Shown here: in pieces, positions 2,953 through 21,374 of the stretch | Layout of the letters: each line of letters starts with the position of its first letter | How positions within the stretch are numbered: position 1 is the first letter of the stretch | Source: a virus | DNA: 21,629 nt | Direction: 5' to 3' (one strand) | Virus record (IMG/VR): IMGVR_UViG_3300036985_004011 | Span: 1 to 21,629 of that record | Program-made: the position numbers and the translations under genes | The notes under the pieces: generated by a model | Seen by the model: the letters and a program-made list of their open reading frames with translations, nothing else | What the model was told of the DNA's origin: nothing | The model's database searches: none

Positions 2953-2954
2953 TC

Positions 2955-4037
2955 ATGCCAATTACATTAATTGACCACAGTAGCCTAGTAACTAAAAAGA
3001 TTGTAGGCAAATTTGAAGAAATGATCCCAGTAAGAACTGGATTTGGAGGATTTTTCCCTGAAGAAACAACTCCTACTTTAGAAGTAGATGTAGAAGTTCA
3101 AAGAGACAATGACCTTATCGCAGTTGATGTTGTACGTTTTACTGAAGGAAACAAAAACAAGTATTCAAGAGTAAGCGAAAATAAATATATTCCTCCATTT
3201 TTTAAAGAGGATTATGATTTCCAAAGAGATCAAGTGTATATGAACACAATTGCTTTAGGTGTTGGTTTAGAGAATGCACAAGTAAATTCAGTTATTACAA
3301 GAAATGCTTTTAAGAATGTTGAAAAAAACAGAAACAAAGTAATTCGTGCAATCCGTAAGCAACAAGCTGATGTGTTACAAACTGGTATTGTATCATTATC
3401 AAATGGAGATAATATTGATTACAGAAGAAAAGCGGCTTCAATGCCAACTGTTTCTGTATTATGGTCTAATGCTGCTACTGCTACACCTTTGACTAATATT
3501 CGTCAAGGAATGGATTTCTTAAGAAATGTTGGTAATTCAGGAGGTTCTAGCGTAAATGTTGTAATGCGTTCTGCTGCTTTTGAAGCTTTATTAGCATCTA
3601 CACAAGTAAAAGAACAAGGTCCAAATACAATCCAACAAATTCAGCGTATTAATATTAATATGCCACAATTTGATGGAGTTTCAGGATTTGCTTTTCAAGG
3701 TATGGTTGCGGCTGGAGATTTCACAGTAAATCTTTGGACTTACAACGAAAAATATACAGATGCTGCTGGAAACACACAGTTTTATTTAGCTGAAAATTTA
3801 GTTGTAATGTTGCCAGAAGATTTTGAAGGAAAAACTGTTTTTGGTGGATTACCAACAATGAACACATCTACTATTGGTGGTGTTTCTGTTGATGTACCTG
3901 GTATAGTTGAAGCTAATTTCTTAATTAGATCTTACAGCGATAAAAGAACAATGTCAAGCACAATTGAATTGACTTCTGCTCCGTTAGTTGTACCATTTAC
4001 AATTGATAAAATCTATACTATGAAAGTATTAGCATAA
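2955..4037 (+). CDS. Major capsid protein (lambda gpE family)
   Basis: Builds the icosahedral shell. The product is 360 residues, close to lambda gpE (341). Family-typical traits are the early FGGFFPEE segment (~30-38), the internal DFQRDQ...NSVITRNAFKNVEKNRNKVIRAIRKQQADVLQTG region (~88-144) with a long helix and conserved Gln-Thr-Gly, the YRRKAASMPTVS stretch, and a C-terminal part with VDVPGIVEANFLIRSYSDKR. The start ATG 2955 follows the decoration gene by two bases (TAATCATG), implying tight co-translation. A lambda-type capsid combined with the Mu-type tail downstream is a chimaeric head/tail pairing. Confidence 0.85.
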   Translation: MPITLIDHSSLVTKKIVGKFEEMIPVRTGFGGFFPEETTPTLEVDVEVQRDNDLIAVDVVRFTEGNKNKYSRVSENKYIPPFFKEDYDFQRDQVYMNTIALGVGLENAQVNSVITRNAFKNVEKNRNKVIRAIRKQQADVLQTGIVSLSNGDNIDYRRKAASMPTVSVLWSNAATATPLTNIRQGMDFLRNVGNSGGSSVNVVMRSAAFEALLASTQVKEQGPNTIQQIQRININMPQFDGVSGFAFQGMVAAGDFTVNLWTYNEKYTDAAGNTQFYLAENLVVMLPEDFEGKTVFGGLPTMNTSTIGGVSVDVPGIVEANFLIRSYSDKRTMSSTIELTSAPLVVPFTIDKIYTMKVLA

Positions 4038-5309: not shown

Positions 5310-6830
5310 ATGGCAACTATTTCAACAGCTGTTGGTCTTGATAGAATTTCAAGAGTTACTGGTTATAATATTAAAAAAGGTTTTTTTTCAAGAGAAACTC
5401 AAAATTTACCACAAATAATTGCAATTTTCGGAGAAGCTAATACAGCTAATCAATCAGGATTATCAGTCAATAAAGTTGAGGTAACAAGTGCAGCAGAAGC
5501 GGCTTCATTATATGGATATGGTTCTCCAATTCATAGAATGGTAAGTATTTTAAGACCATCTGGAAGTGATGGCGTTGGTGGAATACCAACTGTTGTCTTT
5601 CCACAAGTTACATCAGTAGGAGCTACTGCAACAGTAAGAGCTTGGACTGTAACCGGAACTGCTACTGCAAATGCAACACACACGTTTGTAATTAATGGTA
5701 GATATTCAGTAGATTTCGCAAGTTATTCTTACGATGTTGCTATTGGTGATACTGCTACGGTTATTGCCGCTAAAATTGCAACTGCAATTAATGCTGTATT
5801 GTCAAGTCCTTGTACTGCTTCAAGTGCTTTAGGAGTTGTTACAATTACTTCAAAATGGAAAGGTACTACAAGTGCTGAATTATTTTTGACAGTTGATTAC
5901 GGAACAAATGCAGCAGGAATATCATACGCACAAACAAGCACTACAAATGGTGCAGGTTCAGTAAGTTTAGATACTTCTTTATCTCAATTTGGAGATGATT
6001 GGTACACAATGGTTTTAAATCCTTACGGAGAAGCTCATTTAGCTACTTTTGAAGCGTTTAACGGATTACCAAACGATGTTAATCCAACTGGAAGATATTC
6101 TGGTCTTATTTTTAAACCATTTTGTGCTTATTTTGGAAGCGTTTTAAGTGATAAAACAGCTTTGGCTACTATTACAAATAATGTTAGTAGAATACCACAA
6201 GTAACAAATGTTATTTGTGTTGCTCCAAATTCAAAAGGATTTACATTTGAAGCTGCTGCCAATGTTGTTGCATTAGCAAGTGTTGTTTATCAAAATACAC
6301 CACATTTAGACGTAACTGGTTTATCTTATCCTGATATGCCAATTCCTTCTGATGGTGTTATTGGTGATTTGAACGATTATAACAATAGAGATTTCCTAGT
6401 TAAAAAAGGATGTTCGACTGTTAAATTAGTAAATGGTGCTTATGAAATTCAAGATTTGGTAACTACTTATCATATTGACGGAGAAGTTCCATTATTATAT
6501 TCTTACCCAAGAACTTTGAATATTCATTGGAACGTTAAGGATTCTTATTCGACATTAGAAAGACTTTATTTAAAAGACAAAACATTGGTTTCTGATTCAC
6601 AACTTATATCTGTTGGTGATGCAATAAAGCCAAAAGAATGGAAAGGACTTGTTTCGGTTTTATTTGATGATTTAGCTGAAAATGCTTTAATCAATGATCC
6701 TGAATTTTCAAAATCAAGTTTAAATGTTCAAATTAGTTCTGCAAATCCAAACAGATTTGAAACTGCTTTCAACTATAAAACAACCGGAACTGCAAGAGTA
6801 TCAAGCACAACTGCAAAAGCAGGGTTTTAA
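5310..6830 (+). CDS. Contractile tail sheath protein (Mu gpL type)
   Basis: Forms the contractile tube around the inner tail tube. The product is 506 residues. The N-terminal pattern LPQIIAIFGEANTANQS (33-49), with SAAEAASLYGYGSPIHRMV (60-78), is the sheath signature 'lPqkiaiiGe...s..ea..lfG.GS..h.m'. The core resumes with DDWYTMVLNPYGE (229-241), and the C-terminal polymerisation part includes NNRDFLVKKGCSTVKL and a region near YSYPRTLNIHWN. An additional β domain at about 112-215 (VTGTATANATHTFVINGRYS, then VAIGDTATVIAAKIATAINA) is the kind of protruding domain known from other Mu-like sheaths. The tube gene follows, as in Mu (L then M). Confidence 0.9.
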   Translation: MATISTAVGLDRISRVTGYNIKKGFFSRETQNLPQIIAIFGEANTANQSGLSVNKVEVTSAAEAASLYGYGSPIHRMVSILRPSGSDGVGGIPTVVFPQVTSVGATATVRAWTVTGTATANATHTFVINGRYSVDFASYSYDVAIGDTATVIAAKIATAINAVLSSPCTASSALGVVTITSKWKGTTSAELFLTVDYGTNAAGISYAQTSTTNGAGSVSLDTSLSQFGDDWYTMVLNPYGEAHLATFEAFNGLPNDVNPTGRYSGLIFKPFCAYFGSVLSDKTALATITNNVSRIPQVTNVICVAPNSKGFTFEAAANVVALASVVYQNTPHLDVTGLSYPDMPIPSDGVIGDLNDYNNRDFLVKKGCSTVKLVNGAYEIQDLVTTYHIDGEVPLLYSYPRTLNIHWNVKDSYSTLERLYLKDKTLVSDSQLISVGDAIKPKEWKGLVSVLFDDLAENALINDPEFSKSSLNVQISSANPNRFETAFNYKTTGTARVSSTTAKAGF

Positions 6831-6852: not shown

Positions 6853-7257
6853 ATGTCAAATTTTGTATTTGGTGATTGCGTAGAAATTAAATGCGTTCAC
6901 AATGGAACAACTTACAGATTTAGCCCTAAAGCTAATGAAACTGCTAACGTTGACAAAGGCGGTATTAGAACTAATGATGATGCAAGTCAGATTACTTCTA
7001 ATGGTCAACTTATGCGACAATTAAATAGAGTTCGTGCAATGATTGAAGTGCCTATTGCTGCTGATTCAATTACAGGTTACGAGCAAAACGCATTAAATTT
7101 AATGGCTTCATCTCCAATTTTAGGAGTTTGGACATTTTCATTTCTTTCTGGAGCTATTTTAAATGGAGCTGGAAGTCCAGTAGGAGATATTCAATTTGAT
7201 TCTAACGGAGGTCAGATTAATTTAAAAGTGGCTTCAGATAAATTTACAACAGTTTAA
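6853..7257 (+). CDS. Tail tube protein (Mu gpM type)
   Basis: Inner tube subunit through which DNA passes. The product is 134 residues, close to Mu gpM in length. It is β-rich, with VEIKCVHNGTTYRFSPKANE near the N-terminus, NRVRAMIEVPIAADS in the middle, and a C-terminal strand pair GDIQFDSNGGQINLKVASDK. It lies between sheath and tail assembly chaperone, the conserved tube position in contractile phages. Family assignment depends on context as well as fold-like pattern. Confidence 0.75.
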   Translation: MSNFVFGDCVEIKCVHNGTTYRFSPKANETANVDKGGIRTNDDASQITSNGQLMRQLNRVRAMIEVPIAADSITGYEQNALNLMASSPILGVWTFSFLSGAILNGAGSPVGDIQFDSNGGQINLKVASDKFTTV

Positions 7258-7269
7258 TAAATAATAAAT

Positions 7270-7683
7270 ATGAAAACAGTAATTAGTAAGGAAGTTGCTT
7301 TAGAAGAATTAGAATCATTTGTAAACAAATTTGTAAAAAAGCCAGTAGCTTTAGATACGTTAGAAGAAACTTATCCTGATATTTTAGAAGGTATTATGGA
7401 TGGTTTAGTTTCATTTGACGAAGCTGGTTTACCAGTTTTAAAACTAAAAAACCCAATTAAAAGCGATACTGGAGATATTTTTCTTTCACAGATTAGTTTT
7501 AAGACACGAATTAAGCCAACTTCATTAGCAAGTATAGCAAAAGGAATTGATTTAAAAACAGATGCCTTAACGCTTCAATTGAGAATGGTTAGTTACATTA
7601 TCGACCAACCAGTACAGATGTTGGATAAATTCGAGCGATATGATTACGATGTAATCAATCAGATTTCAACAGTTTTTTCGTAA
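7270..7683 (+). CDS. Tail assembly chaperone, short form (Mu gp41-like / lambda gpG-like)
   Basis: Binds the tape measure protein during tail assembly and is not expected in the virion. The product is 137 residues, mostly acidic and helical (EVALEELESFVNKFVKKP, TYPDILEGIMDGLVSF), with LKLKNPI...ISFKTRIKPTSLASI in the middle and MVSYIIDQPVQMLDKFERYD near the end, a layout typical of gp41-like chaperones. The ORF ends in a run of six T followed by CG and TAA. A second open frame continues for 60 codons beyond the stop, the arrangement expected for a programmed frameshift. It lies between tube and tape measure, the conserved place for this gene. Confidence 0.85.
   Translation: MKTVISKEVALEELESFVNKFVKKPVALDTLEETYPDILEGIMDGLVSFDEAGLPVLKLKNPIKSDTGDIFLSQISFKTRIKPTSLASIAKGIDLKTDALTLQLRMVSYIIDQPVQMLDKFERYDYDVINQISTVFS
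7672..7683 (+). promoter_or_regulatory. Predicted +1/-2 ribosomal frameshift site
   Basis: The zero frame reads GTT TTT TCG TAA at 7672-7683. Six T (7673-7678) let tRNA-Phe re-pair one base forward or two bases back. Both move the ribosome into the frame beginning CGT at 7679; the -2 slip adds one extra Phe. The stop codon right behind the slip favours shifting. A -1 shift gives only eleven more residues, so it is not the productive frame. Mu uses a -2 shift at a homopolymer-then-CG site in the corresponding gene (from memory of the literature). Confidence 0.75.
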
Positions 7684-7861
7684 TTGGCAGTTTGATGATT
7701 ATGATTTATTAGATAATATGATTAAAAGTATTGTTTACGAATATCATTGGACACCAAAAGTAATAAGTAATATGTTTGTTGATGATTATGATTTTAAAGG
7801 ATTGATTTATTGGTACGATGAATTAATAAGAATTGACAAACAAATGAAAAAAAATAAATAA
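7679..7861 (+). CDS. Frameshift extension of the tail assembly chaperone (long form C-terminus)
   Basis: Sixty open codons in the +1 frame run from CGT 7679 to TAA 7859-7861. The sequence begins RNWQFDDYDLLDNMIKSIVY and contains EYHWTPKVISNMFVDDYDFK, ending in a Lys-rich tail. The motif of Trp-x-Pro followed by an aromatic/acidic helix is like the T or gp42 half of other phage chaperone pairs. There is no good independent start at its beginning; an ATG at 7718 exists but would lose the first 13 residues. It is most likely made only as a gp41-extension fusion of about 197 residues. Confidence 0.75.
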   Translation, partial: RNWQFDDYDLLDNMIKSIVYEYHWTPKVISNMFVDDYDFKGLIYWYDELIRIDKQMKKNK

Positions 7862-7863
7862 TT

Positions 7864-7901
7864 AAAACCTCCAACAGCATTAGTTTGTTGGAGGTTTTTT
7901 T
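7864..7901 (+). terminator. Intrinsic terminator between chaperone and tape measure genes
   Basis: A perfect 13-bp stem (7864-7876 with 7886-7898) carries a nine-base loop and a T-run. It starts two bases after the stop of the frameshift extension and ends 17 bases before the tape-measure ATG. Within one late operon it would lower expression of the baseplate genes relative to sheath, tube and capsid unless antitermination acts. Confidence 0.88.
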
Positions 7902-7917
7902 CTAAAAAAAAGATATT

Positions 7918-9882
7918 ATGGCAATAGCTACAATGAGAGTTCCGACTATATTTACTGCGGTAGATAGGTTTTCAGATGTTGTTTCAAAAATGTCAGGTGG
8001 TGTTAATAAATTTAGCAAAACAGCTTCTTCGGCAGTTAGCAGGGTAGATAATAAGATAAATGGAATGTGGAGTTCTATGAATAGTATTTCTCAACTTGCT
8101 ATTGGTGGGGGTGTAGGAGGTTTGTTTTATTATGCAGGTCAAGATATTTTAGAATATGAAAAGAAATTAGCTAGTTTGGCGGCAGTTACTGGAACCATTG
8201 TAGGTTCGATGAACAAACAAATTGAAAGTCTTGGAAAAGAAACAGGTAGGTCTGTAATTGATATAGCAGGAAGTTTTGAAATTGTAGGTTCAAAAATGTC
8301 GCAATATTTAAATAATCCTGAAGCATTAAAATCTATAACAAAAGCGAGTGTTTTAATGGCAGATGCTTCAAGAATGGAATTAGAACCAGCAATTGAATCT
8401 TTGACAGGTGTTATGAATATTTTTGGAAAATCTGCTAACGATGCAAATTATATTGTAAATAAATTATCAGCAGGGGAGATTGTAGGTAGTATTAAAATTG
8501 CAGAAACAGCAGATATTTTAAGACAATTTGGTGGTACTGCTAGATTAGCAAATGTACAAGTTGATGAATCTATTGCATTAATTCAAACTTTAACAAAATC
8601 ACTAGGAATTGAGGGAGTTGGTAGAGGTATTAGAAATTTAATGTCAGATTTGAACATGGTTGGTGCTTTTGATAAAAACAAAATGAGAGCATTGACAAAA
8701 GCTGGTGTTGATATGGATATTTTAGGAAACAAATCATTGGATTTAGTTACTAGATTAAAAGAATTAAAAAAACTTGAAGGAAATAGTGCTGCAATGGGAT
8801 TATTTTTTAAGAAAACTGGAATACAAACAGGAGCAACTTTATTTCAAAATTTTGATGACTATATTAGATTTTTAGAAGCTATTAAAAACACAAATGCAGC
8901 ACAAGAACAAGCAGATAAAAACAATGCTACATTATCAAGAGGAATTAAATATTTAAAAGAATCTTTTACCAATTTTATTGTAACAAATAATGAATCAAAT
9001 GCTGCATTAAAAATCACTAAAGGTTTGTTGTCTTGGATGACTGATAATATGGGGTCTTTAATAAATTTAGTAGGACTTTTAATTGGGGCATTTATAATTT
9101 GGAAAGGAATTGTTATGCTTACTGCTGCAAGATTATTTATTTTAAATGTTGCAATGGGTCTTTCGGCTTTTCAAGCTGGTGCAATGGCAATATCAATGCA
9201 AGGAAATGCAGTTGCAATTGGAGTTTATAATATTGCTACATTAATTGCTACCGGAAGTACTGCTGCATTAGGAGTAAGTATGATGACTGTTTTGGCACCA
9301 GTATTATTAGTTGTTGGAGCATTAGGATTATTAACTTATGCCTTTTGGGATAGTGAAGATGCGACAAATTCAATGGTTTCCAATCAAATTAATTCTTTAA
9401 CAAAAGGAAATTCTGCTATTATTAATTCAACTAAAGTTATGTCTGCAGAATTGCATAAACAAAAAGAATTAATGGAAACGCATAATCCAAATGTAATTGG
9501 TTCAAGAAGTATAACTAATGCTAATTTATTAAATGTTTTAAATAAAAATAAAGCTGATAAATTAATTCGTGATACTGAAAATGCTAAAATTGTAGCGGCT
9601 AGAGATATTGCTGCTAAATCGGCAAAACCATTACAAATGTCGAATGTAAATGGCGTTATGCAAATATCAGGAGGTTTAAACTTGTCAACTGAAAATAAAC
9701 CTACAAATTCTACAAATTTAGCAGGACAAAATCAAAATCAAATGGAAATGATAAAAGAATTGATGTCGAGTAAAAGTGGTAAATTAGACTTAAATATTTC
9801 TGCTCCTTCTGGATATGGTGTTGAAACCGAAGGATTTGTTCCAAGCGGAATAAACGTACATACTTCATCAACAAAAAAATAA
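7918..9882 (+). CDS. Tail tape measure protein
   Basis: Sets tail length and travels with DNA during injection. The product is 654 residues. The N-terminus is Ser/Lys-rich helical (FSDVVSKMSGGVNKFSKTAS). A core of the TP901/PhageMin tail tape measure kind follows at ~65-310, with GQDILEYEKKLASLAAVTG, SLGKETGRSVIDIAGSFEI and TADILRQFGGTARLANVQVD. Two hydrophobic stretches lie at ~381-415 (LLIGAFIIWKGIVML) and ~458-478 (VLAPVLLVVGALGLLTYAFW), likely the membrane-inserting parts. A Gln/Asn/Ser-rich C-terminal tail follows. At about 1.5 Å per residue the tail would be near 100 nm. The position after the chaperone pair is canonical. Confidence 0.9.
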   Translation: MAIATMRVPTIFTAVDRFSDVVSKMSGGVNKFSKTASSAVSRVDNKINGMWSSMNSISQLAIGGGVGGLFYYAGQDILEYEKKLASLAAVTGTIVGSMNKQIESLGKETGRSVIDIAGSFEIVGSKMSQYLNNPEALKSITKASVLMADASRMELEPAIESLTGVMNIFGKSANDANYIVNKLSAGEIVGSIKIAETADILRQFGGTARLANVQVDESIALIQTLTKSLGIEGVGRGIRNLMSDLNMVGAFDKNKMRALTKAGVDMDILGNKSLDLVTRLKELKKLEGNSAAMGLFFKKTGIQTGATLFQNFDDYIRFLEAIKNTNAAQEQADKNNATLSRGIKYLKESFTNFIVTNNESNAALKITKGLLSWMTDNMGSLINLVGLLIGAFIIWKGIVMLTAARLFILNVAMGLSAFQAGAMAISMQGNAVAIGVYNIATLIATGSTAALGVSMMTVLAPVLLVVGALGLLTYAFWDSEDATNSMVSNQINSLTKGNSAIINSTKVMSAELHKQKELMETHNPNVIGSRSITNANLLNVLNKNKADKLIRDTENAKIVAARDIAAKSAKPLQMSNVNGVMQISGGLNLSTENKPTNSTNLAGQNQNQMEMIKELMSSKSGKLDLNISAPSGYGVETEGFVPSGINVHTSSTKK

Positions 9883-18351: not shown

Positions 18352-18390
18352 AATGTGAAACCCTATAAAATAAGGGCTTCACATTTTTTT
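18352..18390 (+). terminator. Intrinsic terminator of the late structural operon
   Basis: A 13-bp stem (18352-18364 with 18373-18385) has one A-C mismatch, an eight-base loop and a T-run. It lies 48 bases beyond the spike gene and just before the promoter of the small-gene island. Confidence 0.85.
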
Positions 18391-21340: not shown

Positions 21341-21374
21341 AAGCCCCAAACCGTAAAAGGTAAGGGGCTTTTTT
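21341..21374 (+). terminator. Intrinsic terminator after the last small gene
   Basis: A 7-bp GC-rich stem AAGCCCC (21341-21347) with GGGGCTT (21364-21370) has three further inner base pairs (ACC/GGT) across a 2x2 mismatch, then a T-run. Confidence 0.8.

Follow-up and report, generated by a model that had tools for sequence, protein, structure and literature searches.

One gene in the contractile-tail module of the Flavobacterium-type phage analysed here probably yields two tail-assembly chaperones through programmed ribosomal frameshifting at a run of T's, and the step in this record would be -2; we give this reading, step included, a probability of roughly two in three. The window, by which we mean the whole stretch of DNA under study, is the 21.6-kb viral record IMGVR_UViG_3300036985_004011 (21,629 nt). 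Its tail module runs from sheath and tube through the ORF at 7270-7683 to tape measure and then baseplate genes, with the following features.

5310-6830: sheath gene of the contractile-tail module
6853-7257, + strand: tail tube protein gene (phrog_4699, E 1.6e-38)
7270-7683, + strand: putative tail-assembly-chaperone ORF, zero frame, 137 aa (phrog_4648, E 1.3e-40)
7672-7680, + strand: candidate slip site GTT TTT TCG with the T-run at 7673-7678 (TTTTT invariant in 29 of 29 non-redundant sequences)
7681-7683, + strand: zero-frame stop TAA, directly 3' of the slip site (same place, +9, in nearly all relatives)
7676-7861, + strand: extension frame, 60-61 codons and stop (phrog_5697, E 1.1e-13; pN/pS 0.43)
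7864-7898, + strand: terminator-like hairpin followed by a T-run, in the gap between the extension and the tape measure gene
7918-9882, + strand: tape measure protein gene (PF10145, E 7.4e-19; phrog_28, E 1.2e-33)

The original prediction had the zero frame ending in GTT TTT TCG TAA between the genes for tube and tape measure, and the window agrees on both counts: ORF 7270-7683 ends with GTT at 7672, TTT at 7675, TCG at 7678 and TAA at 7681, and it is flanked by the phrog_4699 match at 6853-7257 and the PF10145 match at 7918-9882. The open frame of 60 codons that had been claimed to lie within reach of a +1 or -2 step is also present. Counted from CGT at 7679, it comprises 60 codons before its stop at 7859-7861; on the 5' side it reaches only 17 nt beyond the slip core. 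The extension would begin at 7676 after a -2 step (FRNW...) and at 7679 after a +1 step (RNW...), and the junction peptides proposed for the two cases, STVFFRNW and STVFRNW respectively, are correct. The site does not follow the canonical -1 heptamer X XXY YYZ, as its phase is GTT TTT TCG and the extension lies in the +1/-2 frame. The contention that the step is not the common -1 thus holds for the window, where it must be -2 or +1, though most relatives use -1.

Relatives were sought by scans that covered viral contigs, one MAG contig and cultured phages. These gave 31 loci with distinct junction sequences, the window included, or 29 after removal of two near-copies; one more locus, L075, was added later from a pattern scan that demanded a sixth T. 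Both frames are kept in every relative examined, and the chaperone gene also lies between tail tube and tape measure in phages FL-1, FCV-1 and phi3ST:2. In a collection of annotated phages, the upstream ORF and the extension each have 86 matching records, all of them from Flavobacterium or Cellulophaga phages (the counts were compared, not the individual records). The extension is in the -1 frame in 24 of the 29 non-redundant sequences, with a conserved Trp codon 8 bases after the core; one relative, L051, has lost this Trp. The other five (the window, L004, L017, L022 and FL-1, our L042), together with L075, carry it in the -2/+1 frame at sites of the form T6-C[AG]-TA[AG]-[AT]TGG, and here the Trp codon stands 7 bases after the core. 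The two types thus differ by a single base, which lies downstream of the T-run, in the stretch from the stop to the conserved Trp codon. Pattern scans for further sites of the -2 type returned one true case, L075, while L076 and L077 proved to be chance matches.

The slip core is strikingly constant. Every relative has a zero-frame TTT preceded by GTT, ATT or CTT (NTT TTT), and in most of them just one further codon separates it from the stop. Of the 122 scored columns of the upstream ORF, none but the NTT and TTT columns are free of synonymous change, the mean being 0.42. The Val codon of the core is never GTA, although GTA accounts for 38% of Val codons here. The genes of the region contain 21 in-phase NTT TTT pairs in 5529 codons, roughly one in 260, and only two of the 21 have the sixth T. 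Downstream of the stop, pN/pS among the -2/+1 sequences is about 0.43 in the extension frame, compared to 0.85 and 1.5 in its other two frames, and by this measure the extension is real coding sequence under purifying selection. Conservation among relatives extends to the residues that immediately follow the slip site. The extension of the window has no ATG, GTG or TTG before codon 15, which is already inside the conserved domain, and several relatives have no ATG until codon 30, or until codon 54 or later, which is midway through the domain or at its end. The frozen slip codons, the selection on the extension and the lack of a usable start before its conserved part are what argue for frameshifting, and the gene combines the position between tube and tape measure, the start-less conserved extension and the conserved slippery sequence of genes of the G/GT kind. 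Overall, the comparative evidence of frames, slip core and purifying selection supports the programmed frameshift first suggested for this T-run, and among homologues both frames and the NTT TTT core are maintained, with no degradation of the downstream frame.

The same three observations make reinitiation and sequencing error poor explanations. Translation of the extension as a separate gene, by reinitiation or coupling after the stop and without any fusion, is how depositors treated it in phi3ST:2 (gp24) and VK58, where it is annotated apart. We consider this very improbable, since the slip codons are frozen, the residues right after them are conserved, and the window lacks any of the three start codons before codon 15, the first ATG of relatives falling at codon 30 or 54 and beyond. 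Slippage of the RNA polymerase on the T-run, with edited mRNAs encoding the fusion, is slightly less probable again: the conserved run is just five T's in most relatives, and two inserted bases or one lost base would be needed here. The runs usually needed for transcriptional slippage are longer than five T's. A homopolymer run is nonetheless present, and slippage of this kind is known in bacteria (PMC5009743). Least probable of all is a sequencing or assembly error or a decayed gene. Homopolymers are error-prone and five of the six -2/+1 sequences come from metagenomic or MAG assemblies, yet the layout is common to six distinct sequences, including the finished genome of the cultured phage FL-1, the one-base difference lies downstream of the T-run and not inside it, and decay is at odds with the purifying selection on the extension within the -2/+1 set.

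The direction of the step is a closer matter, and we prefer -2 over +1. A -2 product is one residue longer than a +1 product (PMC5009743), and the length of the junction can be compared with that in the -1 relatives. Their products read VFYVRW, or VFFIRW where there are six T's (L018, L054 and L055), and have three residues between the slip Phe and the conserved Trp (YVR, FIR, SLR). A -2 step would likewise leave three (FRN, FHN, FHR), giving VFFRNW in the window, whereas a +1 step would leave two; moreover, the first residue after the slip Phe is aromatic in most -1 and -2 products. The preference for -2 thus rests on a product length equal to that of the relatives' -1 products. A backward slip is further favored by the last T of NTT, which never varies and is needed only for backward re-pairing. 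The sequences themselves show the two frames and their conservation, the invariant slip core and the one-base difference; that the ribosome slips here, and by -2 rather than +1, we infer.

It is possible, if clearly less likely, that the gene makes the same two products by a +1 step. The tRNA-Phe would then slide forward from TTT 7675-7677 onto TTT 7676-7678 during a delay in the reading of TCG, a less-used Ser codon, giving VFRNW. TCG makes up just 7% of Ser codons here, +1 frameshifting has a precedent in the tail genes of the haloarchaeal virus HSTV-2 (PMC5009743), and the sequence TTT T CR, which allows perfect re-pairing, is found in all six -2/+1 sequences, although L075 was found by a pattern that demanded it. 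The sixth T is needed for perfect +1 re-pairing and not for -2, and since it is often found in close -1 relatives as well, it is weak evidence. A +1 step would also yield a product one residue shorter than every relative's -1 product, mean that slipping reversed its direction inside one clade while the core stayed as it was, and leave the invariant T at the third base of NTT unexplained. The site differs from +1 frameshifting of the prfB type, as the A site holds TCG, with the stop in the next codon, and there is no Shine-Dalgarno-like sequence just upstream. Against our own reading stand the non-canonical site and the failure to find either a Shine-Dalgarno-like stimulator or a conserved RNA structure; ribosomes of the hosts hardly use Shine-Dalgarno pairing (PMC8710568). 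On the 3' side, RNAalifold gave no consensus pair, with single sequences in places folding slightly better than shuffles, and we do not claim a stimulatory RNA structure.

With a -2 step, the 137-aa chaperone would be the product of most ribosomes, those that terminate at TAA 7681. In a minority that pause while the P site holds tRNA-Phe paired to TTT 7675-7677, the tRNA would slip back two bases within the T-run to TTT 7673-7675, and the ribosome would read on through TTT CGT AAT TGG and add a 61-residue extension with the junction VFFRNW. Relatives would reach the same outcome at the same core by -1. In the clade of the window, deletion of a single base after the stop and ahead of the conserved Trp codon would have created the dependence on a -2 product. 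As most relatives use -1 at the same core, the -2/+1 type is a derived variant. Five relatives (L018, L048 and L054-L056) have the same T6-TCR-TA site yet keep the extension in the -1 frame, for example:

L018, -1-type site: GTTTTTTCATAAGGTGG

They look like natural intermediates: take away one of the bases that separate the stop from the Trp, and the layout of the window results. When the junction residues are left out of tree building, the -2/+1 sequences are nested among the -1 types and the best tree needs four changes; a single origin has a p-AU of 0.26, so that one clade is not rejected, and we make no claim of multiple independent origins. We lean, somewhat less firmly than for the frameshift itself, toward a scheme in which one NTT TTT core serves both -1 and -2, the number of downstream bases alone sets the product, and a one-base deletion moved the clade of the window from -1 to -2 with the slip core unchanged.

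We infer that ORF 7270-7683 encodes a tail-assembly chaperone; phrog_4648 and phrog_5697, the families of the ORF and the extension, are both catalogued as of unknown function. The profile PF10109 (Phage_TAC_7, 'E, or 41 or 14') matches 3 of 13 aligned members weakly, with a best E of 2.2e-4, and does not match the window's own ORF. The structure of the ORF protein was modelled with confidence (pLDDT 91). This model has three significant matches in a viral structure library, all to unnamed viral proteins, and weaker ones named as tail assembly or tape measure chaperones (E 0.028 and 0.36). A fold search of the PDB with it had no significant result; YqbN ranked first, at E 0.84. A link of the upstream protein to P2 E or Mu 41 by profile comparison was not significant. 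The extension, which is modelled as helical, gave in direct searches with PF06528 (Phage_P2_GpE, the E' domain) no match in the window and one among 29 relatives (E 0.055), and profile comparison with P2 gpE' reached an hhalign probability of 82-86% (P about 1e-5). Just after the conserved Trp, the window carries a three-residue insertion (7685-7720, QFDDYDLLDN as opposed to xxDGLDN in relatives).

The hairpin at 7864-7898 is the only such element within the tail operon of the window and is possibly an attenuator that lowers expression of the tape measure gene. By a strict scan, 21 of 31 loci carry a hairpin at this place, their stems having 17 different sequences; folding adds a few loci to these, and the element is absent where the gap is 0-6 nt. 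Several distant relatives (L013, L014, L015, L016, L038, L039 and L044) have a second terminator-like hairpin, which lies some 640 bases before the stop of the extension, near the gap between tube and chaperone and close to the start of the chaperone gene. Between them, the two hairpins may reduce expression in steps, first between tube and chaperone and then between chaperone and tape measure. Only three other strong terminator-like hairpins are found on the + strand of the window: at 853-888 before the capsid gene block, at 18352-18385 after the tail operon and at 21341-21370 near the right end.

Programmed -2 frameshifting is rare, and here -1 and -2 (or +1) versions occur in close relatives with near-identical slip sites, some of them cultured phages, which opens the determinants of step direction and size to direct testing. 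If one core does serve both steps, the family would be a natural experiment in which slippage of the P-site tRNA on a T-run gives a usable -2 product in Bacteroidota. A literature search on frameshifting in these Flavobacterium or Cellulophaga phages found no description of it among the papers covered. A close case is Flavobacterium phage FL-1 (KY421186), whose chaperone is 67% identical and whose site has the same -2/+1 layout (ATT TTT TCA TAG ATGG); its extension (3404-3586) is unannotated, as is that of FCV-1, and the FL-1 genome paper is silent on a frameshift. In phi3ST:2 (KC821610, L044) the extension at 2953-3138 stands as a separate hypothetical gene, gp24, and in VK58 it is also a separate hypothetical gene. 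All four annotations could be corrected to frameshift products.

Tail phages use -1, -2 or +1 frameshifts, as reviewed by Atkins and colleagues, who name phage Mu, the arteriviruses and one Trichomonas virus for -2 (PMC5009743). Mu gp41 shares with the window a contractile tail, the position between tube and tape measure, a homopolymer preceded by another base, and a TGG-containing extension in the -2/+1 frame behind it, whereas its run is of G's and its extension looks unrelated. The resemblance to Mu that was originally proposed stands for the layout of homopolymer then CG and fails for the six identical bases, as the Mu reference site CGG GGG CGA G has five G's. In P2, the chaperone gene E likewise precedes the tape measure gene, has a T6 run and continues out of frame as E+E', and P2 E' and the extension of the window have the pattern HWPPSE...M...L..W.E.A in common (hhalign probability 86%). 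In contrast to the window, where the T-run has the phase N TT TTT T and the step is -2 or +1, P2 shifts by -1 on the canonical T TTT TTG; because P2 and its kin have T6 at the same place, the T-run as such is not new. Lambda G/GT is alike in operon position and presumed role, but belongs to a non-contractile tail and uses -1 at G GGA AAG. In lambda, coating of the tape measure protein falls to the short form and recruitment of the tube protein to the long one (PMC5009743), and by analogy the 137-aa form would coat the tape measure protein here and the long form would bring in the tube protein. A switch between -1 and -2 within one group has a parallel in Trichomonas vaginalis viruses, with -2 in TVV1 and -1 in TVV2-4 (PMC5009743), although these are eukaryotic dsRNA viruses and the gene is a different one, which makes it a parallel only. 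In summary, the mechanism is known from other phages, and the switch between a one-base and a two-base step within one family is apparently the new detail.
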